Source: Arthrobacter sp. SLBN-112
Lineage (GTDB): Bacteria > Actinomycetota > Actinomycetes > Actinomycetales > Micrococcaceae
Assembly: GCF_030944625.1 (NCBI RefSeq)
Contig: NZ_JAUSXY010000001.1
Location: 558,001 to 622,000 of the forward strand
Reading direction: 5' to 3'
Length of the DNA: 64,000 nt
The number at the start of each line of letters is the position of its first letter. The first letter of the stretch is position 1. Shown one piece after another: positions 39,818-58,757 of the stretch. Position numbers and translations under genes: made by a program. The notes beneath the pieces are model-generated. The model searched no databases, was not told the origin of the DNA, and was given only the letters and a program-made list of their open reading frames with translations.

Positions 39818-39888
39818 TAGGCAAATTATTAGCTATAGTTGCCCGGAATCCGCGCCTTAGTGGTGTGCTGTGTGTGAGAATTGGAGCC

Positions 39889-41152
39889 ATGACGACAGAC
39901 TCCACCCTCCGTTTCGGAGCACAAACGGACGAAGTAACCAGCCTGCTGCGAATCGTCAACCTGGTGCGGACAGGCGAGGCAACCACCCGGCCCGAAATCG
40001 GCAAGGTCACCGGGCTGGGCAGGGGCGTCGTGAGCCAGCGCGTGGACCAGGCCATTGAAATCGGATTCCTCGGCGACGGCGACTTCGGCGCCTCGTCCGG
40101 AGGCCGCGCGCCGCGGACTCTCCGTTTCCGCTCGGAACAGGGGCGGATCGTCATCTGCGCCCTCGGCGCAGCGCACATCAGGGTGGGCATCGCGGCGCTC
40201 GACGGCGACATCATTGACCATGCGCACCGCAATTGGGAGATTTCCCAAGGGCCGGAGAAGACCATCGATGCGGTCATGACCCTTATTGATGACGTGCTCA
40301 AGAAACATCCCGACGTGCCGGTGTGGGGTGTGGTGGTCGGCCTGCCAGGCCCGGTGGACTTCGCCACGGGACAGCCCGTGGCACCGCCGATCATGCCCGG
40401 ATGGAACGGCTTCGACGTCCGGACGCCCTTCGAGGAACGCTTCAACGCGCCCGTATGGGTGGATAACGATTCAAATCTTTTGGCTCTTGGTGAGCGCGCC
40501 CGCCGTCGCGACTCCCTCACAGACCTGATCTACTGCAAGATCGGCTCGGGAGTCGGCTCCGGCCTGCTGTCCAAGGGCCGGATCCACCGTGGCGCCAACG
40601 GCGCGGCCGGGGATATCGGCCACGTTAGGGTATCCGACTCCAACGAGCAGTGCCGCTGCGGCAAAGTCGGCTGCCTCGAAGCCGTGGCCGGCGGATGGGC
40701 CCTGGTGCGGGACGCAGAGCAGGCAATCAAGGAAGGCGTAACCACCTCCCTTGCCGGACGGGCAAAGGAGCGGGCGCTGACCCTGGAAGACATCACCCTC
40801 GCAGCACAGGCCGGTGATTCACTGGCTATCACGCTCGTTCAGAAGTCCGCCCACGTGGCCGGCGAGACCATCTCGGCCCTGGTCAACATGTTCAACCCGG
40901 GAGTCATTGTCATCGGAGGCGCCATTGCCTCTGCGGGCGAGGTGTTCCTGGCCGAGGTGCGGCAACGCGTGTACGAACTGTCGTTGCCCCTTGCCACCCC
41001 GCGACCTCACCATCACCTTGTCCGTGAACGACGAGCGCGAACCGCTCCGCGGCGGAGCAGAGCTTGCACGCGAGCAGTTGTTCGATGTCACTTTCCCGCG
41101 CTGGTTCGCCGAAGGCAGGCCGTCTCCCGAGCGAACGGCAGTGCCGGCCTGA
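39889..41152 (+). pseudogene. ROK-family transcriptional regulator with a +1 frameshift near the 3' end
   Basis: ATG 39889 after TTGGAG. Residues about 20-70 carry a winged helix-turn-helix (TRPEIGKVTGLGRGVVSQRV). The ROK sugar-kinase fold follows, with GLPGPVDFATG, WVDNDSNLLALGE, YCKIGSGVGSGLL and the zinc motif GHVRVSDSNEQCRCGKVGCLEA. The frame breaks at LPLAT (about base 41002, in ACCCCGC) and resumes one base later as RDLTITLSVNDERE to the stop at 41152. The intact length would be about 420 residues. If translated as shown, the C-terminus is replaced by an unrelated run ending near 41277. It is the best candidate for binding the GACATAAG sites. Confidence 0.87.
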
Positions 41153-41184
41153 GCCTCCTTACCGAGGCAGCCCGGCAGCCGCGC

Positions 41185-41598
41185 TCACGCCACGTCGCGG
41201 GAGATCCCCGGCACCGCCGCCGGGCCCGCGTCCAGCCGGGCCTCAACGCGGAACGGGAGTATCAGCGGCGAACCTGAGGGAGCCCGCAGGTAAGGCACCA
41301 TCAGGGTGAAGTCCACACCGACGGCGTGCGTGCCGGCGGAGAGTTCCCCCGGGACGGCCAGGACAAGCCTGTCCTGGATGAACCACCACCCGGGCTCGGC
41401 CGGCAAGGCGTCCGCCGGCACGCGCCTGGTGCCCAGCACCACGGCCACACCGCCCGCAGCAACCGGAACGCCGTCCACCTCCACGGCCAGGCCGGCAATA
41501 CTGGAGAGCGGCATCGAACGGATCCATGGTAAGCCAAGCCGGAGCTCGAAGCCGCCAGGAATGGCGGTCAGTGCGTCGTCGCGCAAAGCGGTTTCCAA
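41185..41598 (-). CDS. DUF6379/C-glycoside deglycosidase beta-subunit-like protein (CarB-like)
   Basis: 137 residues. The start appears to be TTG 41598, with AAGGAAGG about 9 nt upstream. It has the family's layout: an N-terminal strand pair ending PWIRSMPLSSIAGLAVEVDG (family: PWYRSL and an IDG/VNG turn), a WWFIQDRL strand, a polar hinge and LMVPYLRAP near the end (family: Y-MQIAP or YIP). The published partners bind a TIM-barrel alpha subunit and complete the active site. It is divergent from its probable partner at 41670, sharing a 71-bp promoter region with a palindromic operator. It is more diverged than the other copies. Confidence 0.75.
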   Translation of the reverse strand: METALRDDALTAIPGGFELRLGLPWIRSMPLSSIAGLAVEVDGVPVAAGGVAVVLGTRRVPADALPAEPGWWFIQDRLVLAVPGELSAGTHAVGVDFTLMVPYLRAPSGSPLILPFRVEARLDAGPAAVPGISRDVA

Positions 41599-41669: not shown

Positions 41670-42656
41670 ATGGCTGCCGAAATTTCCGCCGACTGGACTC
41701 TCTGCGCCAGTTCGTTCAACTGGGCTCCCGACATCGTGGCCGCCGGGCGAACTGCCCCGGACATCGTTTCCGGTATTGCGGACCTGGTGAAAACCGTGGA
41801 ACTTGAACCGGGGCTTGTGTGGCGGTCCTTTCCCGATCCGCAGGACGAGGAAGTGGACGGCCTCCGCCAATCCCTGGCGTCGCGAGGGGGCCACATCAGC
41901 ATTGTGGGGGCGAGCCTGGACGAGTTCACCTCCCCCACCACCCGGCGTTCCCTGCTGGAGCGGCTGGAGTTCCTGGCACCGCAACTGCGTGCAGCGCACC
42001 GGGTTGGAGCCCACGGAGTCCGGCTGCCGATCGGACAAGCGGGGCCCGACCTGCTCACCCTGCTGCAGCCGATGCTGCATGAACTGGACCTGGTGTTGTT
42101 CGAGGAAATCCAAGGCCGGCAGGCTCCCGGGAACCCCGGCGTCGAGCCTGCCCTGGACGCAATCGCCGCGCTGGCGGATGACCACGTGCGGGTGCTCGTG
42201 GACATCAGCATGCTCATGCCGGCCCTTCCCGCCACCTACCTTGAAAAGCTTCGCCAAAGCGGGATCCCCGCGGAACTTCTGGCGCGCTTGGAACATGACT
42301 GGCGGGATCCCGCCACCCTCGACGCGGTCACGGCCCTGCTCCGGTCAGGGCAGGTTCCGCCGCGGATCCACACCCTCTTCATGAACCTGTTGATCCGCTT
42401 CGGCCGCAGCGAGGCAGCAGACCTGCAGGGCATCATGCCCCTGGTGGGCGCCTTCCATCTGAAGTTCTGGGACCTGGACGACGACGGGAGGGTTTCGCAG
42501 CCGCTGCGGGACCTCGCCGGCCTGCTCAGCCGGAGCGGCTTCACCGGCACGCTGACCAGCGAGTGGGGCGGCCACGAGTGGCTGCAGGACGACCCCACGG
42601 AAATGACGCGGCGGCACTTGGCGCTGGCGGAGGCGGCGCTGTCCTCCGGCAGTTGA
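41670..42656 (+). CDS. TIM-barrel C-glycoside deglycosidase alpha-subunit-like protein (CarC-like)
   Basis: 328 residues, ATG 41670 after AAAGGAAAGG. It is a sugar-isomerase-type barrel diverged from the other copies but keeps the four metal positions: Glu145 or 146 (LVLFEEIQG), Asp178 (RVLVDISM), His263 (AFHLKFWDLD) and Glu298 (TSEWGGHEW). The loop AFHLKFWDLDDDG matches VHAKFYDID-DG of its relatives. A probable heterodimer forms with the divergent small gene. In related enzymes the barrel cleaves the 3-keto-C-glycosidic bond using a divalent metal; the substrate here is unknown. Confidence 0.8.
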   Translation: MAAEISADWTLCASSFNWAPDIVAAGRTAPDIVSGIADLVKTVELEPGLVWRSFPDPQDEEVDGLRQSLASRGGHISIVGASLDEFTSPTTRRSLLERLEFLAPQLRAAHRVGAHGVRLPIGQAGPDLLTLLQPMLHELDLVLFEEIQGRQAPGNPGVEPALDAIAALADDHVRVLVDISMLMPALPATYLEKLRQSGIPAELLARLEHDWRDPATLDAVTALLRSGQVPPRIHTLFMNLLIRFGRSEAADLQGIMPLVGAFHLKFWDLDDDGRVSQPLRDLAGLLSRSGFTGTLTSEWGGHEWLQDDPTEMTRRHLALAEAALSSGS

Positions 42657-43736: not shown

Positions 43737-44924
43737 TTACACTGCCGGGGCAGGGACGCCGGCGGCGACCCGTGTCCAGGCGGAACCGTTGTCAGAACTG
43801 CGTTCAACCGCCTCCAGCACCTGCTGCACCTGCAGGCCGTCGACAAAGGTCGGATGCGGGTCGGTGCCGTTGACGATGCCCTCCACAAGGTCCTTCACCT
43901 GGTGGGAGAATCCGTGCTCGTAGCCAAGCATGTGACCCGCAGGCCACCATCCTGACAGGTAGGGGTGCTCCGGCTCGGTGACCAGGATCTTCCGGAAACC
44001 CTGGCGGTCCGGGGAAGAGGTCCGGTCGTAGAACTGGACGCTGTTGAGGTCTTCCAGGTCGAAGGCGAGCGCTCCCTTGTCCCCGGAAACCTCAATCTGC
44101 AGCGCGTTCTTACGGCCGGTCGCGAAGCGGGATGCCTCGAAGGAGGCCAGCGCGCCGGATTCGAAGCGGCCGGTGAAAATGGCGATGTCGTCCACGGTCA
44201 CCTTGCCGTATCCCGCTCCGGCAGTTCCGGACAGCCCCGCGCCCGATTCCAGCAATGGCCGTTCCTTCACGATCGTCTCGATCACGCCGGAGACCGTGTC
44301 AAGGTTCAGTCCGGTGACGAACTGGGCCAGGTCGATTGCGTGGGCACCGATGTCACCCAGCGCCCCGGATCCGGCGTGTTCCTTTTGCAGGCGCCACGCG
44401 AGCGGCATGTCCGGGTCAACCAGCCAGTCCTGCCGGTAGGACGCCCGCACCTGGCGGACGGTGCCCACGGCGCCTTCGGCAATGAGTTTCCGCAGGAACG
44501 TGGCGGCGGGGACGCGGCGGTAGGTGAAACCCACCATCGCGCGGAGGCCGCGGGCGGCCGCCCTTTCCGCGGCTGCGGCCATGGCTTCGGCTTCGGCCAC
44601 GCTGTTGGCCAGCGGCTTCTCGCACAGGACGTGCTTCCCGGCCTCCAGTGCGGCAATGGCGATCTCGGCGTGGGAGTCGCCCGGGGTGACAATGTCGACG
44701 ACGTCGATGTCTTCCCGCGCGATCACGTCGCGCCAGTCAGTGGCCGCCTCAGCCCAACCCCACTTCCGCGCAGCCTTACCTACCGCTTGGGCATTCCGGC
44801 CAACAATGACCGCCATTTCCGGCTCGGCGGGAAGATCGAACACCCGCGGAGCCGTGCGCCAGCCTTGGGAATGCGCGGCGCCCATGAAGCCGTAACCGAT
44901 CATGGCCACGCGCAGGGTGGTCAT
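43737..44924 (-). CDS. Gfo/Idh/MocA oxidoreductase (paralogue of 6120-7298)
   Basis: A 395-residue enzyme: [25 protein letters not shown] (EKP), [26 protein letters not shown] (acid/His). ATG 44924 overlaps the stop of the beta-subunit gene (ATGA). Its similarity to 6120-7298 and the shared TIM-barrel neighbour show that a two-gene cassette exists twice in this window. It probably interconverts 3-keto and hydroxy sugars with NAD(P)(H). Confidence 0.92.
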
Positions 44925-45319
44925 GCCAGCACGACCTTTCGGTCCACTGCCACCCGGTTTCCCACGTACCGCATCGGAGCGATCTGCATGTAGAGCAGGC
45001 GGAGGGTCAGGATGACCTCGACGTCGATTTCCTCGCCGGCGTCGGGAACGCGGTCCAGCGGGATGATGATGTCCGGCTTGTCAGCCACAAACCACAAGGT
45101 TTCCCACTGCTCCGGGAGCTCCGCGATGGAGTATGACTTGCCCTGCAGCTCGAAGCGGAGGGATTCCTTGGAGATTTCCACACCGTTGACGGTTGCCGCG
45201 ACGTCGTCCACGGCGGACAGCCAGAGGCTGCGGTACCACGGCAGTTGCACCGCTACGGAGATGCCTTCCGGGTGCCTGCGGACGTCGGTGTCCTGGAACA
45301 GCGAATTGTGAGTTGCCAT
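44921..45319 (-). CDS. DUF6379/C-glycoside deglycosidase beta-subunit-like protein (CarB-like)
   Basis: 132 residues, ATG 45319 after AAGGAAAG. Family signatures are RRHPEGISVAVQLPWYRSLWLSAV, VNGVEIS, ETLWFV and LLYMQIAPMRYVG. The same words occur in the N-terminal domain of the fusion protein at 55961-57433 (AHPEGLAVALTIPWYRSLWLS, RLPYMQIAPG), its closest relative here. It follows its alpha partner (45329-46393) after 9 bp, so this pair is transcribed alpha then beta. No signal peptide; cytosolic. Confidence 0.88.
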   Translation of the reverse strand: MATHNSLFQDTDVRRHPEGISVAVQLPWYRSLWLSAVDDVAATVNGVEISKESLRFELQGKSYSIAELPEQWETLWFVADKPDIIIPLDRVPDAGEEIDVEVILTLRLLYMQIAPMRYVGNRVAVDRKVVLA

Positions 45320-45328
45320 GGGCTTTCC

Positions 45329-46393
45329 TTACTTAGCGGTCTCGACCAGGGTCGGGTGGGAGTCAGAGGCGTTTGGTGCGACGGCGTCTTCGATGGCACT
45401 GCGCATCAGGGCGTGCTGCTTCTTCACCAGCTCGATGGGATCGGATTCGCCGAGGTCGGCGAAGGCATGGCCCTCCCATTCGCTGGACAGGAAGCCCTGG
45501 TAGCCGCCCTTGACGAACTGGCGCACAATCCGCGGAATGTCCATGGCGGGCTCGTTGCCCTTCTCGTCAATGTCGTAGAACTTTGCATGGACGTGGAACA
45601 TCTGCGGCATGATGTCCAGCCATTCCTCCGGCGGAACCAGGCCGTGCATGTTGAACGCCAGCCGGGTGAACGGACCAAGCTGCGCCGGATCGAAGTTGTT
45701 TTCCCGCAGGTAGTCCTCAAACTCCTGGTTGCGTTCCTGCATGGGCAGGGGCTTGCGCCAGATGTCCTGCATGACGGCAAAGTGCTCTTGGGGCAAGCCC
45801 ATTTGGGTCAGCGTGCGGAACAGAGTGGGCGAAAGGCTGTGCATGGTGGAGCTGAAGTCCGCGGTGAAGCCCAGCCGCTCGCTGTCCAGCTCGGCGTACA
45901 TCTCCCGGATCTGAAGGATCTTCGGATCGTTGGGACCCTGGGGGGCGTGGATCTCGTAGCCCAGCTTCTGGTCGTACTTTTCGGCCAGGGGAAGAAGGCG
46001 CCGCAGCAGTTCCTTGCCGGCTGACCGGATGACGATCTTGTTGAAGCCCAGCGTGTTGGCGGTCTTGAGTTGCCTGGCGAAGAAGTCGAACTCCTCGTCC
46101 GGCGTCATGTCCCGTTCCTTGCGGCGGCCCATGTCCAGGTTGGTGCCGACGGCGCTGGGCGTGAGGCCGTAGCGGTCCATGCTGTCGCGCCACAGTTTCA
46201 CGAAGTCGTCGTCCACGTCGGGATAGGTGCGCAACATTTGGGCGATATTGAATTCGACGCCGGGGCCGAGGCCTTCGTCGGCCGCGGCCTTGATCAGCGT
46301 TTCGGGCGTGTAGAGCCCGGCGGCGAATTCAGAGGTGAGTGAGTAGAGGGTGATGCCAAGCTCGATGCCGGAGCCGGCGATGCCTTCAGTCAT
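45329..46393 (-). CDS. TIM-barrel C-glycoside deglycosidase alpha-subunit-like protein (CarC-like)
   Basis: 354 residues from ATG 46393 (MTEGIAGSGIELG); the upstream open frame is Arg/Pro-rich and not coding. Metal-site residues are Glu147 (GYEIHAP), Asp179 (GFTADFSST), His269 (FHVHAKFYDID) and Glu305 (SSEWEGHAF). Long segments match the C-terminal domain of the fusion at 55961 (NLDMGRRRDRDMTPDEE versus NLDMGRRKERDMTPDEE). It would pair with the small protein encoded 9 bp downstream to break a C-C or related glycosidic bond in a 3-keto-glycoside. Confidence 0.88.
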   Translation of the reverse strand: MTEGIAGSGIELGITLYSLTSEFAAGLYTPETLIKAAADEGLGPGVEFNIAQMLRTYPDVDDDFVKLWRDSMDRYGLTPSAVGTNLDMGRRKERDMTPDEEFDFFARQLKTANTLGFNKIVIRSAGKELLRRLLPLAEKYDQKLGYEIHAPQGPNDPKILQIREMYAELDSERLGFTADFSSTMHSLSPTLFRTLTQMGLPQEHFAVMQDIWRKPLPMQERNQEFEDYLRENNFDPAQLGPFTRLAFNMHGLVPPEEWLDIMPQMFHVHAKFYDIDEKGNEPAMDIPRIVRQFVKGGYQGFLSSEWEGHAFADLGESDPIELVKKQHALMRSAIEDAVAPNASDSHPTLVETAK

Positions 46394-46413: not shown

Positions 46414-47517
46414 TCAGCCGCGGACGGGCTGGGCGAGGTGGCTGTTGAGGATGCGGCGTGCTTCCGCGGGGTCGGTGATCATGGCCGAGCCGGCGTTGGC
46501 TGCGGCTGACCGCTGGACGGCCTGCTCGCCGCGGATGATGTCGAACGGGTCCTGCCAGTTGTTCCAGTGCCAGCCTTCGTATTCGCTGGAGATCGCGCCG
46601 GAGTAGCCGTTCTCCACCAGTTGGCGGACCAGGCCGCGCACCGGCACGGACGGCTCTTCGCCGTTCTCGTCGATGCCGAAGAACTTTCCGTGGACGTGCC
46701 GGACCCACGGCATGATTTCCAGCCAGGTGTCCAGCGGCGCGGGGCCGAAGAGGCCGGTTCCGTTGATGGCGAAGTCGATGCCCAGGTCCGGCCGGCCGTT
46801 GCGGGCGGCAAGGCCGATGAAGGCGCCGAACCGTTCCCCGTGGACTTTCTGGGTGTTGGGCGGTCCTTCCGCGTAGAAACCGTTCCACAAGTCCACCACC
46901 TGCTGGAGCAGGTCCTCGGACGCTCCGCGGCGGCGGTATGCCTCCAACAGCGAAGGCGCGAAGCCGGTGACGGTGGCGCCCCAGTCGGCAGTGAACCCCA
47001 GGAGTGGTGAATCGAGCTTCTCGTAGCGGTCGCGCAGCGCAAGGACGCGTTCGTGCGCGCCGTGCTGGTCTGCGTGGACCTCCAGCGCCAGCGTGACGCC
47101 GTACTTTTCTGCAACGGGAAGGAGGCTCTCCATGGCATCAGGCGTCAGCGAGATTTGCACCCGGGCAATCGGGAAGCCGAGCCGGGCTGCCACTTCGATC
47201 TGCTTGCGCATGTATTCGACCAGTTCATCGTGGTTCATGAGCCGGTCACGGCGGATTCCGGTGTCAACGTTGACGGCGAGCGAGGTGGGCACCAGGTCCA
47301 CCTCCGCCACAAGGTCCCGGAACTGCCCCACGAAGTTGTCGTCGACGCGGTCGGGGAAGCCGCGCAGGCTGGAGAAGCCGATGATTTCGAGCCCGGGGCC
47401 AAAGCCTTCGGCCGCGACTTTGCGGATCAGGCCGTCAAGGTCGTACTCCCGGCCATGGAAGGCACGGGTGAAGCTGTAAAGGGTGACGCCCTGGATGGGC
47501 GTGCCGGGGCTGGTCAT
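46414..47517 (-). CDS. TIM-barrel C-glycoside deglycosidase alpha-subunit-like protein (CarC-like)
   Basis: 367 residues. ATG 47517 overlaps the stop of the beta gene by 4 nt. Ligand positions: Glu146 (LALEVHAD), Asp178 (GFTADWG), His276 (RHVHGKFFGID) and Glu312 (SSEYEGWHW). It is less like the other copies in the middle (loop 205-260), where substrate contacts are expected, so a different aglycone or sugar is plausible. Translational coupling to the upstream beta gene supports an obligate heterodimer. Confidence 0.88.
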   Translation of the reverse strand: MTSPGTPIQGVTLYSFTRAFHGREYDLDGLIRKVAAEGFGPGLEIIGFSSLRGFPDRVDDNFVGQFRDLVAEVDLVPTSLAVNVDTGIRRDRLMNHDELVEYMRKQIEVAARLGFPIARVQISLTPDAMESLLPVAEKYGVTLALEVHADQHGAHERVLALRDRYEKLDSPLLGFTADWGATVTGFAPSLLEAYRRRGASEDLLQQVVDLWNGFYAEGPPNTQKVHGERFGAFIGLAARNGRPDLGIDFAINGTGLFGPAPLDTWLEIMPWVRHVHGKFFGIDENGEEPSVPVRGLVRQLVENGYSGAISSEYEGWHWNNWQDPFDIIRGEQAVQRSAAANAGSAMITDPAEARRILNSHLAQPVRG

Positions 47518-47909
47518 CGCTGTGCCACCTTCATGGTCTTGGTGTCGTGCTCTTCGATGTGCAGCACGCCGTGGTCGGTGATGATGTAGGGGATGTAGAG
47601 CTTCACGTCCACCCGCACCTCGTGCCCGGCGCGGGAAGCATCCACCGGCAGGTCACCGGAAAGAACTGCGGAGTCCAGCGGGAACCACCACTCGTCGGTC
47701 TGGTCCACGAGCTCCTCAAAGCTGAACGTGCGGTTGTTCATGGTCCAGCGCAGTGATTCCTCCGGCGCCGCAACCCCGTCAATGGTGAGTGCTGCCCCGG
47801 CAATGCAGGACCCGGGAAGGGCCCGGTACCAGGGAATACGGACCTCGACGGCGGCGCGGCCGTCATGACTGGTGAGTGTTCCTTGCTCGATTATGCGGTC
47901 GGCGATCAT
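47514..47909 (-). CDS. DUF6379/C-glycoside deglycosidase beta-subunit-like protein (CarB-like)
   Basis: 131 residues from ATG 47909 with GGAGGT close upstream. Family features: VEVRIPWYRALPGSCI, LTIDGVAAPEES, DEWWFPLD, and VKLYIPYIITDHGVLHIEEH in the last third. It precedes and overlaps its alpha partner at 46414-47517, so this pair is transcribed beta then alpha, the order kept in the single-chain fusions. A GACATAAG site lies 93-101 bp upstream, inside the end of the preceding oxidase gene. Confidence 0.87.
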   Translation of the reverse strand: MIADRIIEQGTLTSHDGRAAVEVRIPWYRALPGSCIAGAALTIDGVAAPEESLRWTMNNRTFSFEELVDQTDEWWFPLDSAVLSGDLPVDASRAGHEVRVDVKLYIPYIITDHGVLHIEEHDTKTMKVAQR

Positions 47910-47973
47910 CGAGACCTCCTTGTCTGCGGCATGCCTTGCCTGCATCGGAAAAGCGGCAGCTTCCGCTTATTCA

Positions 47974-49533
47974 TTATTTAGTCATTCTATTGTCTGAATC
48001 AGACATAAGTAAAGTATCGGCGAGTTCCGCAGCGATCTTTCCTGCCCCGCGGACCGCGAGCGCCACCGATGTCAGGGTAGGATTGCACGCCGTAGCGGTG
48101 GGAATTACGCCATTGCCGGCCACGAAGAGGCCGGGGACCTGCCAGACCTCGCTGTCCGGGGAACACACGCTCCCGCCGTCGTCGTACTGCCCCATCCGTG
48201 TGGTGCCCTGGTAGTGCAGCGAGGCACCCGGCGGGAGGACGAAGGGCCGCTCATCAAGCGGCTCCCCCACGGCCTTGCCGAGCCGCACGATCTCCTGCTG
48301 GGCCCGCTCCAGCACCTCCCGGTCCTTTTCGGTCAGGCTGTAGTGGATGCGCAGGGCAGGCATCCCGCAGCTGTCCAGCGTGCCATCGTCGAACGCCACC
48401 CTGTCCTCGCGCTGGAGGTCCTTGGCGCAGAACAGCCCCAGCCCCACGATCGATCCGGGAACGACGGGGTCGTCCTCAGCCAAGGGAATGGGCGAAGCAT
48501 CCAACTGCATGATCTGGCCGTGGAAGGGCATGTCATCCGTATAGGGCACCCAGGTCACGCCACTTTGCTCACTGAGGGCTCCGTCTGCACGCGCCTGCCC
48601 CTCCTCGACGCTGACGCCGCGAAGACGGGTGGCAAATACCACCTGCGACTGGTCATTGAGGTACCGGCCCAGTGCATCGGGCCTGATTCCGGACGCCCAC
48701 AGCAACTGGGGGGTGCGCAGGGCGTCACCGCCCACCACCACATAGCGCGCGGCCACCCGGTGCGTGCCTCCACCGCGGCGGTCTTCCACCTCCACACCGG
48801 CGGCGCGCCCGCCCTCGACCAGGACACGCCGGACCAAGGACTCGTCGAACAGGTCGAACCGTGGGTTTTCCCGGGTGGCATCGCCCATGACGACGTCGGA
48901 TCCGGACCACACGAGGCGGCCGTCGCCACGCCGGTGAACAGCGAGCGGCATGGGCTGGACGTGGAAGGCCGGGTTTCGGCCGTCGTCAACGGCGGCGGCG
49001 AGACGGTCGTGGACGAGGCGGGAGAACGGTGCCGACTCGAAGGCGGAAGTGGTGACGCCGAGGAGGCGGCCGGCTTCCTCCAGCAGTTGCTCCAGGTCCG
49101 GCAGGAAACCGATGCGCTCCTTTCCGCCGGGGCGGGGGCAGGCGGCGGTCCAGTGGGCGGCCATGCCGCCCACGTTGCTGGACATTGCCGCTACGGGCAT
49201 CCCGTCCTCACCGGGGAACGCGTAGCCGTCCTGCAGCAGGTACGTTCCGGGCCGGGCCCGGCGTTCGCCGCTCTTGACGGCGCCGGGTGAGTTGACCGTC
49301 TCGGCCCCGGCCCCGGGGCCTTCCGATGCCCGCTGGGCGGCTGCACGGAGGTTCTCATCCTCGATGTTCTTGACGTGGGCGCCCGGCGGATTGCTCACCG
49401 TGGGACCCACCTCAAACATGGCGATGCTGGCTCCGGGAGCCCTCTCGCTGAGGATGCGGGCATACGCGGACGCGGTGGGGCCGCTGCCGACGATCGCTAC
49501 ATCGACGGCGGCCGGGTAGCGGTTGCTGCTCAC
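47974..49533 (-). CDS. GMC/pyranose-oxidase-like FAD oxidoreductase (CarA-like)
   Basis: 519 residues from GTG 49533, overlapping the stop of the previous gene. FAD motif VAIVGSGPTASAYARIL with MFEVGP; C-terminal SLHYQGTTRMG (His440) and TACNPTLTSVA (Asn484) as the catalytic His/Asn pair. It is similar in length and motifs to 34691-36259. In the published C-glycoside route this enzyme type oxidises the C3 hydroxyl so that the alpha/beta enzyme can cleave the bond. Its position directly before a beta/alpha pair fits that role. Confidence 0.88.
   Translation of the reverse strand: MSSNRYPAAVDVAIVGSGPTASAYARILSERAPGASIAMFEVGPTVSNPPGAHVKNIEDENLRAAAQRASEGPGAGAETVNSPGAVKSGERRARPGTYLLQDGYAFPGEDGMPVAAMSSNVGGMAAHWTAACPRPGGKERIGFLPDLEQLLEEAGRLLGVTTSAFESAPFSRLVHDRLAAAVDDGRNPAFHVQPMPLAVHRRGDGRLVWSGSDVVMGDATRENPRFDLFDESLVRRVLVEGGRAAGVEVEDRRGGGTHRVAARYVVVGGDALRTPQLLWASGIRPDALGRYLNDQSQVVFATRLRGVSVEEGQARADGALSEQSGVTWVPYTDDMPFHGQIMQLDASPIPLAEDDPVVPGSIVGLGLFCAKDLQREDRVAFDDGTLDSCGMPALRIHYSLTEKDREVLERAQQEIVRLGKAVGEPLDERPFVLPPGASLHYQGTTRMGQYDDGGSVCSPDSEVWQVPGLFVAGNGVIPTATACNPTLTSVALAVRGAGKIAAELADTLLMSDSDNRMTK
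47991..48010. promoter_or_regulatory. Candidate operator with GACATAAG inside the oxidase 3' end
   Basis: TGTCTG-AAT-CAGACA (47991-48005) is an inverted repeat with 6-bp arms running into GACATAAGT (48002-48010). It lies within the last dozen codons of the GMC gene and about 80-100 bp upstream of the beta gene start at 47909, in an AT-rich stretch that could hold an internal promoter for the deglycosidase half of the operon. Confidence 0.55.
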
Positions 49534-50716: not shown

Positions 50717-51553
50717 TCAGCCTTTGAGTCCGCCGGAGAAGCCCTGGATAAAGCGCTTCTGCGCAAACAGGAACAACGCCAGGATGGGAATCATGGATAC
50801 GATTACGATCGCGAAGATGGAATTCCACTTCGAGACCAGCGAGCCGATGAAGTAGTACATGGCCACCGGGAGTGTCTGGTTGGCGGATCCGCCCAGGAAG
50901 ATCAGCGAAGTGAAGAAGTCGTTCCACACGATCAGCCCGGCGAAGATGGTGACCGTTCCGGTGGCCGGAGCCATCATGGGAAACACCACTTTGGAGAAGA
51001 CCTGCGTCTTGCTGGCGCCGTCGATCGTGGCGGCTTCCTCGTAGTCCGTACCGAGGCCACGGAAGAAGTTCGAGTACAGGAAGATTGAGAGCGGCAGCAG
51101 CATCCCGGTGTACAGGACGATCAGGCCCCAGGCCGATCCGGTGAGCCCCAGCCCACGGGCGCCCATGTACAGCGGCACGGCGCCGAGCTGGCCCGGAAGG
51201 ATGATGGCCACCAGGAAGAGGTAGTACGCCGCCTTGCTCCACCTGCGGGTGCTGCGGGAAATAACGTAGCCGGTGATGGACCCCAGCGCGATCAACCCGA
51301 TGATGCTCCCGGCGGTGATGATGACGCTGTTGACCAGGCCGGCCATAACGTTGGAATTGCCCGTGGCCGTAAGGACTTTCACGAAGTTGCCAAAGTCCGG
51401 ATTCGCGGGAAGGGCCAGGGCAGAGGTTGTGTACATTTCGCTGTCCGGCTTCAGGGCCGTGGTCACCAGGAAGTAGAACGGGGCGAGGAAGACCAGGGCC
51501 AGGGCCCAGAGCCCGATTTCGCGGATCAGGGTGAATTTCGTGTAGCGGAACAT
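50717..51553 (-). CDS. Sugar ABC transporter permease (MalG-like)
   Basis: 278 residues with six transmembrane helices and the EAA loop YEEAATIDGASKTQVFSKVVFP, followed by IVWNDFFTSLIFLGG and the C-terminal QKRFIQGFSGGLKG typical of MalG proteins. It starts 3 bp after the MalF-like gene. Confidence 0.93.
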   Translation of the reverse strand: MFRYTKFTLIREIGLWALALVFLAPFYFLVTTALKPDSEMYTTSALALPANPDFGNFVKVLTATGNSNVMAGLVNSVIITAGSIIGLIALGSITGYVISRSTRRWSKAAYYLFLVAIILPGQLGAVPLYMGARGLGLTGSAWGLIVLYTGMLLPLSIFLYSNFFRGLGTDYEEAATIDGASKTQVFSKVVFPMMAPATGTVTIFAGLIVWNDFFTSLIFLGGSANQTLPVAMYYFIGSLVSKWNSIFAIVIVSMIPILALFLFAQKRFIQGFSGGLKG

Positions 51554-51556
51554 GGG

Positions 51557-52516
51557 TTAGTCCTCAGGATTCGATCGCGTCAGCCGCTGCTGGATCACGG
51601 CGAAGATCAGGATGATGAAGGCGAGGACCAGGGCCAGGGCAGCTCCCCCGCCAAAGTTGCCCAGCGCGAACGCCTGCTTGTACACCTGCGTGGCAAGCGT
51701 TTCCGTGGCCCCTGCCGGGCCGCCGCCGGTGAGTGCCATGATGGGGTCGAAGACCCGGAGGCCCTGGACAATTCCCAGCGTGGTGGCGATCGCGACGGCG
51801 GGACGGATCGCCGGCAGCGTGACGTTCCGGAAGCGCTGCCACAGGTTGGCGCCGTCGATCGCCGCGGCTTCTTCGACCTCCACCGCAACACCGGCGAGTC
51901 CGGCCATGAAGATCACCATGGCGAACCCGGTGGAGGACCACACGAGGACAACAAGGACCGTCCAGATGGCCCACTGGGGGTCGGCGAGCCAGGGCTTTGC
52001 CAGTTCTCCGAGGCCGGCTGCCTTCAGCAGGACGTTGATGGGGCCGTTGAAGTCGAAGATGTACTTCCAGATGTAGGCGGTGGCAAGCGGGCTAAGGACC
52101 ACCGGCATGAAGAAGAGCGTGCGGAGGATGTAGCGCGTCTTCAGGACCCGGTTCAGTCCCAGTGCGATGATCAACCCGGCGACGTTGCCCAGCAATACCG
52201 ACCCGAAGGCCAGGAACAGCGTGTTGGAGAGGGCGCCGACCTTCGTGGGGTCCTTGAAAATTGCCTCGAAGTTGTACAAACCGGTGATCTTGAAGGAACC
52301 GATTCCCGTCCAGTTGGTGAAGGCGAAGAACCCGCCGATACCGGTTGCCACGTAGTGGATGGCGATGACGAGGGCGATCCCGGGGAGCGCCCACCACCAG
52401 TGTCCAAACTCCAGGGAGCGGGACCGGGGACGGGCGGGACGGCCCGCCCCCGGCGCGCGCTTGCCTCGCCGGGGTGCTTCTGCTGCTTCGCTCTTGGGTT
52501 GCATCGTCGCAGTCAT
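51557..52516 (-). CDS. Sugar ABC transporter permease (MalF-like)
   Basis: 319 residues, ATG 52516 after AAGGAA. A 45-residue basic cytosolic tail precedes the membrane domain. The EAA loop is EEAAAIDGANLWQRFRNVTLP, followed by VFDPIMALTGGGPAGATE. With the MalG-like gene and the binding protein it forms a CUT1 importer without an operon-encoded ATPase. Confidence 0.93.
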   Translation of the reverse strand: MTATMQPKSEAAEAPRRGKRAPGAGRPARPRSRSLEFGHWWWALPGIALVIAIHYVATGIGGFFAFTNWTGIGSFKITGLYNFEAIFKDPTKVGALSNTLFLAFGSVLLGNVAGLIIALGLNRVLKTRYILRTLFFMPVVLSPLATAYIWKYIFDFNGPINVLLKAAGLGELAKPWLADPQWAIWTVLVVLVWSSTGFAMVIFMAGLAGVAVEVEEAAAIDGANLWQRFRNVTLPAIRPAVAIATTLGIVQGLRVFDPIMALTGGGPAGATETLATQVYKQAFALGNFGGGAALALVLAFIILIFAVIQQRLTRSNPED

Positions 52517-52570
52517 GATAATTCCTTGCTTGTCCCGTTGAGTCGTTGGAACGGTAGTGGAGTGGAAGAC

Positions 52571-53869
52571 TTACTGTCCCCAGGCGGCATCCATGGCCTG
52601 CAGAACCTGGTCAGTGGTCTTCTGCCCGGTGATCAACCCTTGGACGCCGGTGGCCAGGGCGTCGTAGACCGACGAGTTGGGCCACTGGCTGTTGGGCAGC
52701 GGGCCATACTTTCCGCCCTTGATCAGGTCGCCCACGTTCTTGTAGGCGCTGCCGTTGAAGTCGTAGCTGTCCAGTCCGCTGACGGGAAGGGCGCCATCAA
52801 TCTCGGCAAAGGCCTTGGTCTGTTCCGGCTCCGCCGCCCAGTCGAGGAAGGCCTTGGCCGCGTCCTTGTTCTTGGAGGCGGCGTTGATGGAGAAGGCGTA
52901 GTTTGCGCTGGCAAACGTGTAGGCCTTGTCCGAGGCCTGCTCGGCCGGGAGGGCACGGACATCGAATTCCGAACCGGCTGCCGCGGTCTTCAGCTGCTTC
53001 CAGCTGGGGGCGGGAATGAAGCCGGCAACGGAGGTTCCGCTGGCAAGGCCCTGGGTGATTGCGTCAAATCCTGCGCCGGCCGCACCCTGCTGGAAGCAGC
53101 CGGCGTCATTGAGCTTCTTGACCGCTTCGAGGGATGACTTCCATCCGTCCGAGCCCGCGAACGTTACCTGGTTTGAGGTCCTCTGGGCGTTCCATTCAGG
53201 ATCATCGGCGTACACCCGACCGGCGGCCAGGGACATCGCCATCAGCCCGGTGTTGGGGGCAGCCGCGCCGGCCAGGGCGAAGAATGACTTACCGGAAGAC
53301 TGAAGGTTTTTGCACTGCTTCTCCAAGGAGGCGAAGTCTGCGGGGAAGTCAGTGATGCCGGCTGCCTTCGCTGCCGTCTCGTTGGCCACCAGGCCCACCA
53401 CGGTGATTTCCATGGCCTGGCCGTAGACCTTGCTGTCCGCGCCGAACAGTGCGTCGCTGCCGGCGGGAACCAGTTTCTTGGCGGCATCGTCCAGCGGCTC
53501 CAGGAAGCCTGCCTGCGCGAGGGGCAGGATGCTGCGCCCCTGGCCGGAACCGGGCGTGGTGACCACGACGTCCGAGGCGTTGCCGGCCTGGAGCTGGGTC
53601 CGCAGGGTCTGGTCATAGGAGTCATTTGGCTGGGGGTTGAACGTGATCTTCACGTTCGAGTGGGACTTCATGTAGTCCTCTGCCAGCGTCTGGAAGGGGC
53701 TCTCGATGTTGTTGGAGGTGGCGAAGGAGAGGGAGAATTCCTGGGTTCCACCCGAAGAAGAGGTGCTGCCGGCGGAGGTGGAGCAGCCAGAGAGGGCGAG
53801 GGCCGCAATGGTGGGGACGGCGAGGGCGCCAACTACCTTCAAACCCGCGGAGCGACGGTGCTGTGTCAT
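52571..53869 (-). CDS. Sugar ABC transporter substrate-binding lipoprotein
   Basis: 432 residues from ATG 53869. The signal is Sec-type with lipobox LALSGC (Cys at about residue 28), then a Ser/Gly linker and a family 1 binding-protein fold (FSLSFATSNNIESPFQTLAEDYMKSHSNVKI, FLDWAAEPEQTKAFAEIDGALPV). It is the first gene of the long operon. Two ACATAAGT motifs 22 bp apart lie 87-116 bp upstream. It presumably delivers the glycoside that the downstream enzymes degrade. Confidence 0.93.
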   Translation of the reverse strand: MTQHRRSAGLKVVGALAVPTIAALALSGCSTSAGSTSSSGGTQEFSLSFATSNNIESPFQTLAEDYMKSHSNVKITFNPQPNDSYDQTLRTQLQAGNASDVVVTTPGSGQGRSILPLAQAGFLEPLDDAAKKLVPAGSDALFGADSKVYGQAMEITVVGLVANETAAKAAGITDFPADFASLEKQCKNLQSSGKSFFALAGAAAPNTGLMAMSLAAGRVYADDPEWNAQRTSNQVTFAGSDGWKSSLEAVKKLNDAGCFQQGAAGAGFDAITQGLASGTSVAGFIPAPSWKQLKTAAAGSEFDVRALPAEQASDKAYTFASANYAFSINAASKNKDAAKAFLDWAAEPEQTKAFAEIDGALPVSGLDSYDFNGSAYKNVGDLIKGGKYGPLPNSQWPNSSVYDALATGVQGLITGQKTTDQVLQAMDAAWGQ

Positions 53870-53901
53870 GTCCAGCCTTTCAGACTTCGTTGTCGAGGAA
53901 T

Positions 53902-53919
53902 CCGGGGTCGTGACCCCGG
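53902..53919. promoter_or_regulatory. GC-rich inverted repeat in the operon leader
   Basis: CCGGGGTC (53902-53909), GT, then GACCCCGG (53912-53919). It is located 33-50 nt upstream of the binding-protein start, in the presumed untranslated leader. With only 2 nt between arms it suits a protein operator better than an RNA hairpin. Confidence 0.4.
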
Positions 53920-53953
53920 TCACTCACAAGTATGCGGGAGATGTGCAGAAAAA

Positions 53954-55960: not shown

Positions 55961-57433
55961 TCAAGCCAGCACGGAGCGCATGCTCTTCCGAATCAGGTCA
56001 TGCTGCCTGCGCACCAGCAGCAAGGGATCCACCTCGCCCAGTTCAGCGAAGGCGTGACCTTCCCATTCACTTGACCAGTAGCCGCGGTAGCCGCCCTCGA
56101 CGAAGACGCGAACCAGCTCCGGATAGTCGATCGCAGGCTCGTTGCCGTCGTCGTCGATGTCGTAGAACTTGGCGTGGACGTGCAGGATCTGGGGCATGAT
56201 GTCCGCCCATTCCCGCGGGCTGACATGGCCGTGCATGTTGAAGGCGAGGTGGGCGAAGGAGCCAAGCCGGGCAGGATCGAAGGCACGGCCCTTGAGGTAG
56301 CCGATGAACTCCTCCTGGCGGGCCCGCATCGGGGCATCGGTGGCCCAAATGGCCTGCAGCTTCTCCAGTGCTTCGTCGTCAAGGCCCGCACGGCGGACAG
56401 CCCGAAGGAGCGTGGGCGACATGCTGTGCATGGTCGAGGAAAAATCGGCGACGAATCCCAGCAGCGGCGAATTGAACTCCGCATACACGTCGCGGACCTT
56501 CATGATTTCCGGCGAGTTCGGCCCCAGTGGTGCATGGATCTCGTAAGCGAGCTGGAGTTCCAACTTTTCAGCCAAGGGCAGGAGCCGGCGCAGCAGATCC
56601 GGCTTGGCGCTTTGGATCCGGACCAGCGGGAAGCCAAGTTTTTTGGCGCCGTGGAAGAGAGTTTCCGTGAACTCGTACTCCTCGTCCGGGGTCATATCAC
56701 GGTCGCGCCGCCGGCCCATGTCCAGATTGGCCCCAAAGGAACTGGCGGCGAAGCCGTGTTTGTCGAAGGCAGCCTGCCAGGATCGGGCGAAATCATCCGT
56801 GACGCACGGATAGGAGGGCAGGACCTGGGATGCGACGATCTCGATGCCGGGGCCGATTCCCAGTTCTGCAACGCGGTTGAGCAGGCCGTCGAAGTCGTAC
56901 CAGCCGGCCCTGAACTCGGCGCTTGCCGAGTACAGCGTCAGGCCCAGCGAGAAGGGATCCCGGCCAGTCGTGGGCGGAGGGGGCGCGTCCGCCGTCGCCA
57001 AGGCCGGTGCGGGTGCCGGCCGGTCCGTGACGGTCAAGTCCAGGGTTTGGTTCACAAAATTGGGGACGTACATGCCGGGGCCACCATCGCGGCCCGGGGC
57101 AATTTGCATGTAAGGCAGGCGCAGCTCACCGGTGAGGTGGACCGTGTGCCGGCTGCCAAGGGCAACGGGATTGTCCCTTCTGGCAATGAGGAGGGGGTGC
57201 TCCTGGAGGTACCAGAGGGTTTCGCTTTGGGCGGGCAGGTCCGGGAGCGCGTAACGGGTGCGCCCCAGCTCCAGGGACAGATCCCCGCCGGAGATTTCCT
57301 CGCCGTCGATGGTGAGTTTAAGGCTGGTGACCGAGGAGAGCCACAGGCTCCGGTACCACGGGATGGTCAGGGCAACGGCAAGGCCCTCCGGATGGGCACG
57401 GAGGCTGGATTCGTCAAGGAGTCCGTTAGGCAT
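55961..57433 (-). CDS. Single-chain beta-alpha C-glycoside deglycosidase-like fusion (CarB-CarC-like)
   Basis: 490 residues containing two domains that are separate proteins elsewhere in this window. Residues 1-135 are a DUF6379-type beta domain (AHPEGLAVALTIPWYRSLWLS, RLPYMQIAPG). Residues about 136-160 are a Pro/Ala linker (rich in PAPA and PPPP). Residues 161-490 are a TIM-barrel alpha domain with Glu298 (AYEIHAP), Asp330 (GFVADFSST), His420 (LHVHAKFYDID) and Glu456 (SSEWEGH). All four metal ligands are intact. It is very similar to the separate pair at 44921-46393. The frame runs through the linker with no stop, so the fusion is real in this sequence. Tandem with a second fusion 10 bp upstream. 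Confidence 0.9.
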   Translation of the reverse strand: MPNGLLDESSLRAHPEGLAVALTIPWYRSLWLSSVTSLKLTIDGEEISGGDLSLELGRTRYALPDLPAQSETLWYLQEHPLLIARRDNPVALGSRHTVHLTGELRLPYMQIAPGRDGGPGMYVPNFVNQTLDLTVTDRPAPAPALATADAPPPPTTGRDPFSLGLTLYSASAEFRAGWYDFDGLLNRVAELGIGPGIEIVASQVLPSYPCVTDDFARSWQAAFDKHGFAASSFGANLDMGRRRDRDMTPDEEYEFTETLFHGAKKLGFPLVRIQSAKPDLLRRLLPLAEKLELQLAYEIHAPLGPNSPEIMKVRDVYAEFNSPLLGFVADFSSTMHSMSPTLLRAVRRAGLDDEALEKLQAIWATDAPMRARQEEFIGYLKGRAFDPARLGSFAHLAFNMHGHVSPREWADIMPQILHVHAKFYDIDDDGNEPAIDYPELVRVFVEGGYRGYWSSEWEGHAFAELGEVDPLLLVRRQHDLIRKSMRSVLA

Positions 57434-57443
57434 GCGGGTCTCT

Positions 57444-58757
57444 TTACTGTGAGCTGGGATGGGTCAGGCGAGGTTGGACGTGATGCGCCGAATCAGGCGC
57501 GTGCTGGCGCCGCACCTGTTCGATGGCCCGCCACGGAGTCCGGTCGCCCTCGTACTCGCTGGACAGGAAGCCGGTGTAGCCGGCGTCCTTGAGGGCTTGG
57601 AGCACCGGATGCCACGGAATTTGCTGGTCTTCCAACTGCTCGTTGATGTCGTGGAATTTTGCCTGGATGAACACCACGTACGGTGCTATGTCCTTCAGGT
57701 CTCCGGGGTCGACGCCGATGCCGTCCAGGAACGCTGGCCGGGTTTCCCGGCTCTCCCCTTCGCGCAGCGGGATGGGGCGGTCCTGGAAGATCCCGGTATC
57801 GATGAGCAGGCCGAAATTCTTGGTGCCGGTGCGCTCGATCAAGCCAATGTAGTCGTCCACCACGGGGTGTTTGATGGGTGTCGGGGAGTGGATCTCGGGG
57901 CAGATGACCACTCCCAGCTCATGCGCCAGGTCCAGTGACCGCTCCACGGATTCGGTCCAGATGGGATCCGGCACAAGGTCGCTGGAGACGACGCCAATCT
58001 TGGGCCGGACGAAGCTGAAGCCCAGCCGGCTGGCGAGTTTCAGGTCCCTCTGCAGCGCCTCCGCCCCTTCGGCGGCGGTCATGGACCGCCCCGGGTGCAG
58101 CCGGGTATCGATCCACGACCCGTAGTTGGTGGGCTCCAGCGAGTATTTCTCGAGCAGGTTGAACCAGTGATCAGTCCAGGCCGGGGACGGTTCCGGGTAG
58201 CCGGGGACGTGCCCCTCGCCAAGGATCTCAACACCGGTGGCGCCAATGTCGGCCACGTGGGCCAGGGCGGTTTCCAGGTCCAGGACGGTCCCGTAGTCGC
58301 CCATGGAGCTATAAAGGGAGACGCCGTATTGGAACGTGCCCTCACCACCTTCGGGCGCCAGCGTGACCTTGCGGCTGACCCGGTGGACTGTGGGCTGATG
58401 CTCCACCGGGATGTAGGACATCCTGAGGCGCAGCTCAATAGTAAGTTCGTGCACTCCCTGCGGCAGGCCGCCGTCGAGCGGGACGGTGATGACCGCCGCC
58501 TCCTCCAAAGGCCACCGGACGCCGTCGCTTTCCCACAACTGCTGCAGGGTGAAGGTGCGGCCCCCGAAACTCCACAGCGGTACGTGGGGCTCCACGTCCA
58601 CCAGGCTGCCCACGCGCACAGCGACGCCGTCGATGAGGGACGCGGCCATGCCCCGGTAGGAGGGCATCCGGACCCGGAACTGGAACCCTGTGACGCGACC
58701 GCCTTCGGTGACGTTGCGGAAGCCTGCGGACTGGATGAGGTCTCTTTCGAGAAGCAT
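57444..58757 (-). CDS. Single-chain beta-alpha C-glycoside deglycosidase-like fusion, diverged
   Basis: 437 residues. Residues 1-132 are a diverged beta-like domain (FQFRVRMPSYRGMAAS for PWYRSL, LIDGVAV, ELRLRMSYIPVEHQ). A short junction (about 133-142) leads into the TIM barrel (YGVSLYSSMGDYGTVLDLETAL). Ligand positions are Glu288 (ICPEIHSP), Asp320 (LLIDTGIF) and Glu401 (SSEYEGD), but the usual histidine is Gln365 in FIQAKFHDIN, with His369 four residues on. Activity, metal binding or substrate may therefore differ. It starts at ATG 58757, with a GACATAA motif about 45 bp upstream, and precedes the other fusion by 10 bp. Confidence 0.85.
   Translation of the reverse strand: MLLERDLIQSAGFRNVTEGGRVTGFQFRVRMPSYRGMAASLIDGVAVRVGSLVDVEPHVPLWSFGGRTFTLQQLWESDGVRWPLEEAAVITVPLDGGLPQGVHELTIELRLRMSYIPVEHQPTVHRVSRKVTLAPEGGEGTFQYGVSLYSSMGDYGTVLDLETALAHVADIGATGVEILGEGHVPGYPEPSPAWTDHWFNLLEKYSLEPTNYGSWIDTRLHPGRSMTAAEGAEALQRDLKLASRLGFSFVRPKIGVVSSDLVPDPIWTESVERSLDLAHELGVVICPEIHSPTPIKHPVVDDYIGLIERTGTKNFGLLIDTGIFQDRPIPLREGESRETRPAFLDGIGVDPGDLKDIAPYVVFIQAKFHDINEQLEDQQIPWHPVLQALKDAGYTGFLSSEYEGDRTPWRAIEQVRRQHAPDSAHHVQPRLTHPSSQ

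Follow-up and report, generated by a model that had tools for sequence, protein, structure and literature searches.

Putative single-chain C-glycoside deglycosidases encoded beside two-gene relatives in an Arthrobacter cluster

Are two adjacent genes, each encoding in one frame both halves of an enzyme that is usually described as two proteins, natural single-chain enzymes or a product of chance? The question is raised by a 64,000-nucleotide stretch of the Arthrobacter sp. SLBN-112 genome (contig NZ_JAUSXY010000001.1, positions 558,001 to 622,000; hereafter the window, whose own positions are used for all coordinates), which encodes five sets of C-glycoside deglycosidase (CGD) domains. A CGD combines a beta domain of the CGDB family (PF19906) with an alpha domain that adopts a xylose-isomerase-like triosephosphate isomerase (TIM) barrel. 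In the two sets F1 and F2 both domains lie on one chain, and we favor the reading, with a probability of about 0.8, that these occur naturally as single-chain CGDs, in a cluster that also holds a 3-oxidase of the GMC oxidoreductase family and three CGD sets of two genes each.

Domain structure of F1 and F2

The initial annotation of this DNA described two adjacent genes with a beta-type domain followed by a TIM barrel in an uninterrupted frame, and this description holds: both open reading frames (Table 1) match PF19906 and then PF01261 (AP_endonuc_2), for which the Pfam cut-offs are 27.6 and 31.1 bits respectively. In F2 the CGDB match spans residues 3-115 (109.4 bits) and that to AP_endonuc_2 residues 166-409 (60.0 bits), whereas in F1 CGDB is recovered at residues 15-108 (41.5 bits) and the barrel less strongly, as detailed below. 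A search of the genome with PF19906 returned five matches, all of them inside the window (F2, F1, B4, B3 and B5). F2 is transcribed ahead of F1, with 10 bases between them (stop TAA, AGAGACCCGC, start ATG).

The Pro/Ala-rich linker of about 25 residues that had been noted in F1 is recovered in a structural model, where residues of about 135-159 separate the last strand of the beta-sandwich (E121-134) from the first strand of the barrel (E162-166) and contain neither a helix nor a strand as long as three residues; the model, predicted as a monomer, is of moderate confidence, with a predicted local distance difference test score (pLDDT) of 80 and residues 110-115 and 117-121 below 50. Likewise, F1, at 490 residues, is about as long as both proteins of the separate pair at 44921-46393 taken together (pair 3; 132 + 354 residues), to which it is 56% identical in the alpha and 44% in the beta domain. 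Among eight gapless F1 orthologues from Arthrobacter and Pseudarthrobacter the ratio of nonsynonymous to synonymous polymorphism (pN/pS) was 0.18 in the beta domain, 0.24 in the linker and 0.08 in the alpha domain; the linker evolves as a translated sequence does, under purifying selection weaker than that on the domains. The linker of F2 is much shorter, at about nine residues flanked by strands E123-133 and E143-147, in a model weaker than that of F1 (pLDDT 73.7, predicted template-modelling score 0.74).

Active-site residues were scored in the numbering of AgCGD2 at five metal ligands (E147, D179, H269, K271 and E305) and the catalytic His of the alpha subunit (H149). F1 retains all six, as E298, H300, D330, H420, K422 and E456 (for E147, H149, D179, H269, K271 and E305 in that order), that is, the five metal ligands and the catalytic His. 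Furthermore, Tyr27 of F1, in a PWYRS motif, falls at the position of Tyr39 of the PuCGE beta subunit, as placed through the same motif in B3 aligned to 7bvr_B. F2 keeps the equivalent of the catalytic His149, and its Tyr34 occupies the Tyr39-beta position in a direct alignment to 7bvr_B.

The initial annotation took these enzymes to be known only as heterodimers, which proved incorrect. PDB entries 8QRZ and 8UN2 (wild-type C-glucosyl deglycosidase of Microbacterium testaceum, released 2025-04-23; 8UN2 by cryo-electron microscopy) hold one chain of about 435 residues, beta then alpha with a short linker, and F2 matches it over residues 1-420 at 715 bits and 72% identity. As these are single-chain entries, a fused CGD has already been purified and its structure solved, and F2 is, to judge by its sequence, of a type already known as a single chain. 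F1 and F2 alike lack two separate subunits, and 8QRZ/8UN2 show that such separation is inessential for the name CGD. No paper on 8QRZ was found in the open-licence PubMed Central (PMC) literature, outside which most subscription journals lie.

F1, on the other hand, is on sequence evidence a separately fused variant in a different CGD clade, that of AgCGD2 (AgCarB2-C2 of Arthrobacter globiformis, 7DNM/7DNN). Its alpha domain is 56% identical to that of AgCGD2 with all scored active-site residues kept, and its beta domain matches 7DNM_B at 85 bits, whereas B3 of the window is far closer (267 bits). It differs from 8QRZ in its alpha clade, its long Pro/Ala linker and its retention of His269. AgCGD2 has two chains to the one of F1: the accessible text of Mori et al. 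2021 (PMC8563793) describes it as assembled from two gene products into an alpha-beta heterodimer, and gives heterodimers for soil CGDs and alpha4beta4 assemblies for PuCGD and EuCGD. The same two kinds of domain recur in EuCGD (DfgA/DfgB), PuCGD (DgpC/DgpB) and the Deinococcus aerius CGD (8QVC, 8UMC), but as separate subunits; the EuCGD and D. aerius alpha subunits agree with F1 at all six residues scored. Sequence and fold searches against the PDB found no structure of the F1-type fused form, the absence of a family from the fold searches being uninformative as they align single chains only, and no paper on such a fusion was found in the same open-licence PMC literature. No NCBIfam family matched F1 or F2 at E 0.001. 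The suggestion that a covalent version might be undescribed thus fails for the F2 type and survives for the F1 type.

A cluster of the same kind, with a 3-oxidase and several CGDs, is found in Pseudarthrobacter siccitolerans 4J27, for which the accessible part of Taborda et al. 2023 (PMC10646112) describes PsCGD_B1/C1 and B2/C2, four separate proteins, beside PsG3Ox. That genome also encodes a fused F1 and F2 (L108), which this part of the paper does not mention; nor do the accessible parts of PMC12724307, PMC10628242 and the review PMC12141560 name a fused CGD. The portion of that 2025 review available to us calls for further phylogenetic evidence on transitions between heterodimers and natural fusions.

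Distribution and lineages of the fusions

An error of sequencing or assembly could in principle have removed a stop codon between two ordinary genes, and in this genome the tail of F2 is indeed shifted by one base against its relatives. This explanation is refuted by the conservation of the fused frames, and we accord it practically no weight. A scan of named genomes with an alignment of F1 recovered 200 stretches encoding relatives, and in the best 80 of these F1 is fused in 78, a count which is not a frequency because the query was itself fused; the two exceptions are disrupted near the linker (L182) or truncated by a contig end (L186). F2-type fusions occur in 69 of the same 80 loci, and in four of the 11 loci without one (L125, L128, L139 and L184) a split pair of the F2 type lies immediately upstream of F1. 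In 41 stretches taken for a match to the beta domain, F1 is fused in 20 and the F2 type in 21, the window included. These stretches come from 37 genomes and that of the window, or 38 of 45 with a CGDB match, the others being G330, G359, G363, G371, G378, G545 and G558. CGDB-positive genomes numbered 28 of 395 in a sample of the family, 16 of 396 in one of the order and 5 of 396 in one of the phylum (three of the five over the cut-off), some genomes being shared between samples.

Genera with F1 relatives include Arthrobacter, Pseudarthrobacter, Microbacterium, Agromyces, Leifsonia, Subtercola, Naasia, Salinibacterium, Pseudoclavibacter and Demequina. Within the Arthrobacter-Microbacterium group the fused architecture is a common one. 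The initial annotation had regarded a common and already characterized architecture as telling against its proposal; commonness is borne out, and characterization extends to the F2 type, with its solved structure, and not to the F1 type as far as the structures and papers searched go. Among 16 plasmid records recovered, one unannotated Arthrobacter plasmid carries a full-length F1 at 84% identity and the rest hold distant relatives; in one Novosphingobium plasmid record that was inspected, beta and alpha are separate genes. The record that contains the disrupted F1 of L182 (9941-11500) bears the label Planococcus sp. APC 4015, which looks odd for such genes. A weak CGDB match in a 524-residue frame of L099 (2790-4361) was discarded as a CGD fusion, the frame consisting of an N-terminal PF25653 and a C-terminal URO-D domain, and a similar hit, G1067 (L101), matched neither of the two profiles used. 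As seen in L099, CGDB may be distantly related to PF25653.

For phylogenetic analysis 315 unique alpha domains, from which matches with incomplete profile coverage at contig edges had been dropped beforehand, were clustered at 84% identity under an equal fused or split label into 70 representatives; removal of L157_2-880 (contig edge) and L182_10116 (disrupted) and addition of four PDB alphas gave 72 rows. The resulting unrooted tree requires six changes between the fused and split states, at least five of them forced by well-supported branches, and without three unsure rows (69 rows) again six with five forced, although such counts are blind to the direction of change, fusion or fission. A single clade of all fused alphas was rejected by the approximately unbiased test (p-AU 2.4e-14), as was one uniting F1 with the F2-like fusions, 8QRZ among them (p-AU 4.26e-06, log-likelihood 368.8 lower). 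A single clade of the 15 F2-like fusions was not rejected (p-AU 0.124), and one of the fused representatives of the fifth CGD type, which occur in L104 and L120, was borderline (p-AU 0.035). Fusions are accordingly found in at least four alpha lineages: F1; F2 and its near kin; a tandem of fused CGDs (488 and 519 residues) on a long branch in L091 (100-3131), whose genome belongs to the same order; and one or two within the fifth type. The order is beta-first in every case, as the initial annotation had it for F1 and F2, and no alpha-first fused frame was seen among the loci examined.

The beta tree places the F1 beta domain beside B3 and L079, and that of F2 beside split EuCGD-like rows; its own count of six changes was not relied on, as it includes L118_2-1492 and L186_9828-11060, labelled split in spite of a fusion or contig end. 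Adjoining the F1 clade are that of pair 3, which is alpha-first, and L079, which is split and beta-first with a TGATG junction; L079 is unresolved in the alpha tree and falls with pair 3 in the beta tree. An origin of F1 by fusion of the neighboring pair 3 as it stands was therefore set aside, since pair 3 is alpha-first and the split beta-first L079 branches beside both clades. On the same grounds a beta-first common ancestor is more likely.

Split pairs and the step to fusion

Among 144 unique split alphas, beta lies directly upstream in 80, downstream in 29 and on the opposite strand in 9; for the remaining 26 there is no partner within 250 bases. Counted among the 80 are the disrupted L182 and also L102, in which the alpha domain starts 131 bases further on. 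When counted in frame and over unique alphas, 74 of these 80 junctions show a four-base NTGA overlap of stop and start: 53 orthologues of pair 4 (B4/A4), all 7 of the 7 split relatives of F2, and 14 further alphas (3 of the fifth type and its kin, 11 others), so that one orthologous group dominates and the independent observations are few. A looser count of 83 of 88, which passed any TGA after A, G or T, was too lax and has been superseded.

Four-base overlaps of stop and start codons couple translation. It had been proposed that loss of the ATGA stop would fuse the pair at 47514/46414, but this step does not suffice: in the overlap CAGCGATGACC beta reads CGA-TGA and alpha ATG-ACC, and since the shared four bases leave the genes one base out of frame, an insertion or deletion would be needed in addition to a change of the stop codon. 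Fusion thus seems to have replaced translational coupling by a covalent link.

These observations also bear on the alternative of one ancient fusion followed by many fissions into the present split pairs. The direction-blind changes of the alpha tree would suit it equally, and it gains slightly from the fact that most overlap cases are orthologues of a single pair. Against it, split rows lie between the fused clades in the alpha tree, NTGA overlaps recur in several split groups (in pair 4, the F2-type pairs and the 14 further alphas), a pattern not expected from repeated fission, and other split sets are alpha-first (29/144) or on opposite strands (9/144). We consider such a history improbable.

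A number of points weigh against our proposal that F1 and F2 are natural single-chain CGDs. The AP_endonuc_2 match of F1 (residues 189-469, 28.5 bits, E 1.5e-6) falls just below its cut-off. F2 has four of the five metal ligands, with Gln in place of His269; the same Gln is present in the deposited CGD 8QRZ, throughout the F2 clade, in the split relatives L079 (17048-18055), L097, L125 and L128 and in the split rows L087_1590 and L096. Furthermore, about 17 residues at the end of F2 are shifted by one base, through mutation or sequencing error, relative to all five relatives compared: the relatives read ...RRQH(A/S)LIRRI... and the window ...RRQHAPDSAHH..., the expected tail appears in a neighboring frame, and the stop at 57444 lies past the shift. 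The frameshifted tail also sets this F2 apart from 8QRZ/8UN2. As the metal-ligand His and the usual C-terminus are both missing, this genome's copy of F2 may be impaired. The fused query, the undirected tree counts and the predominance of pair 4 among the overlaps, all noted above, belong on the same side.

Chain arrangement, gene neighborhood and implications

Comparison of the models with 8QRZ_A gave a divided result: the F2 model agrees over 424 aligned residues at a root-mean-square deviation (rmsd) of 3.1, whereas the F1 model, over 510 columns in Foldseek, gives an rmsd of 17.6, with beta placed differently against alpha. This raises the possibility that a fused chain does not always act in cis, the F2 beta domain, on its short linker, pairing with the alpha domain of a neighboring chain in a domain-swapped oligomer and F1, with its linker of about 25 residues, folding back on itself. 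The confidence of the two models is moderate for F1 and weaker for F2, so that the gap in rmsd may be a modelling error, and alpha-beta interfaces vary among CGDs in any case, according to the accessible text of PMC8563793; we regard this arrangement as possible but rather doubtful. More tentative still is the combined proposal that fusion of the pair took place four or more times, with beta leading in each, and that the long linker of F1 would close the active site within the chain while the short-linker F2 would build it between chains.

As to activity, substrate, oligomeric state and the selective reason for fusion in F1 and F2, we infer the following scheme. The oxidase would convert a C-glycoside to the 3-oxo-C-glycoside, the Mn-dependent TIM-barrel half would hold the sugar and supply the catalytic His (by analogy with AgCGD2 and PuCGD), and the beta-sandwich half would complete the aglycone pocket; the C-C bond would then break by a beta-elimination-like step such as that published for AgCGD2 and PuCGD. 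Covalent joining would fix the ratio of the halves at 1:1, for which many split beta-first pairs seem to use the four-base overlap instead.

The locus has the appearance of a C-glycoside catabolic cluster (Table 1), of which the GMC oxidoreductase at 47974-49533 is expected to be the first pathway enzyme. The same stretch encodes further sugar-isomerase-like TIM barrels, a SnoaL-like protein and a ROK regulator. The presence of five CGD sets in one cluster makes specialization among them likely. The fifth set (41185-41598 / 41670-42656) may catalyze another reaction; by eye it has Gly for Glu307 and Ile for Tyr39-beta. The ROK regulator (39865-41277) seems, also by eye, to be frameshifted, its expected C-terminal sequence apparently running on in an overlapping frame at 40814-41152.

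Table 1. Fused and split CGD genes and their neighbors, in window positions
Feature	Position	Strand	Basis
F1 fused CGD, AgCGD2-like	55961..57433	-	490 aa, single open frame
F1 beta domain, residues 1-134	57032..57433	-	PF19906; strands to residue 134 in model
F1 linker, residues 135-159, Pro/Ala-rich	56957..57031	-	alignment and model; pN/pS 0.24
F1 alpha domain, residues 160-490, TIM barrel	55964..56956	-	active-site residue alignment
F2 fused CGD, EuCGD-like branch, clade of 8QRZ/8UN2	57444..58757	-	437 aa, single open frame
F2 beta domain, residues ~1-133	58359..58757	-	PF19906; Tyr34 at Tyr39-beta position
F2 short linker, about residues 134-142	58332..58358	-	model secondary structure
F2 alpha domain up to frameshift	57498..58331	-	Gln replaces AgCGD2 metal-ligand His269
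F2 C-terminal tail, ~17 residues, frameshifted against relatives	57447..57497	-	five relatives compared
B3, separate beta subunit, AgCarC2-like, downstream of A3	44921..45319	-	Pfam, 7DNM_B match
A3, separate alpha subunit, nearest to F1 alpha among window paralogues (56%)	45329..46393	-	Pfam, tree
A4, separate alpha subunit; start overlaps B4 stop (CGATGA)	46414..47517	-	Pfam, junction
B4, separate beta subunit	47514..47945	-	Pfam, junction
B5, fifth beta subunit, divergent from A5	41185..41598	-	PF19906
A5, alpha-like TIM barrel, Gln for catalytic His149	41670..42656	+	residue alignment
GMC oxidoreductase, pyranose oxidase / C-glycoside 3-oxidase kind	47974..49533	-	PF05199, PF00732; TIGR02462 pyranose_ox 194 bits (below cut-off 544.9)
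Gfo/Idh/MocA dehydrogenase	43737..44924	-	levoglucosan dehydrogenase-like 360 bits, below cut-off 650
Sugar ABC transporter: two permeases and substrate-binding protein	50717..53923	-	Pfam

The distribution of the fused lineages suggests that the fusion seen in 8QRZ was not a single accident and happened in other CGD branches too. Fused clades, their split neighbors and the junctions between split genes can now be aligned together, and fused CGDs could simplify expression, with one gene and a fixed ratio of halves, for the removal of C-linked sugars from flavonoids or xanthones. If F1 does fold back on itself while F2 is swapped between chains, the AgCGD2 class would have in F1 a minimal CGD with an obligate 1:1 ratio, and the fused enzymes and their split relatives would form a natural series bearing on the value of subunit separation.

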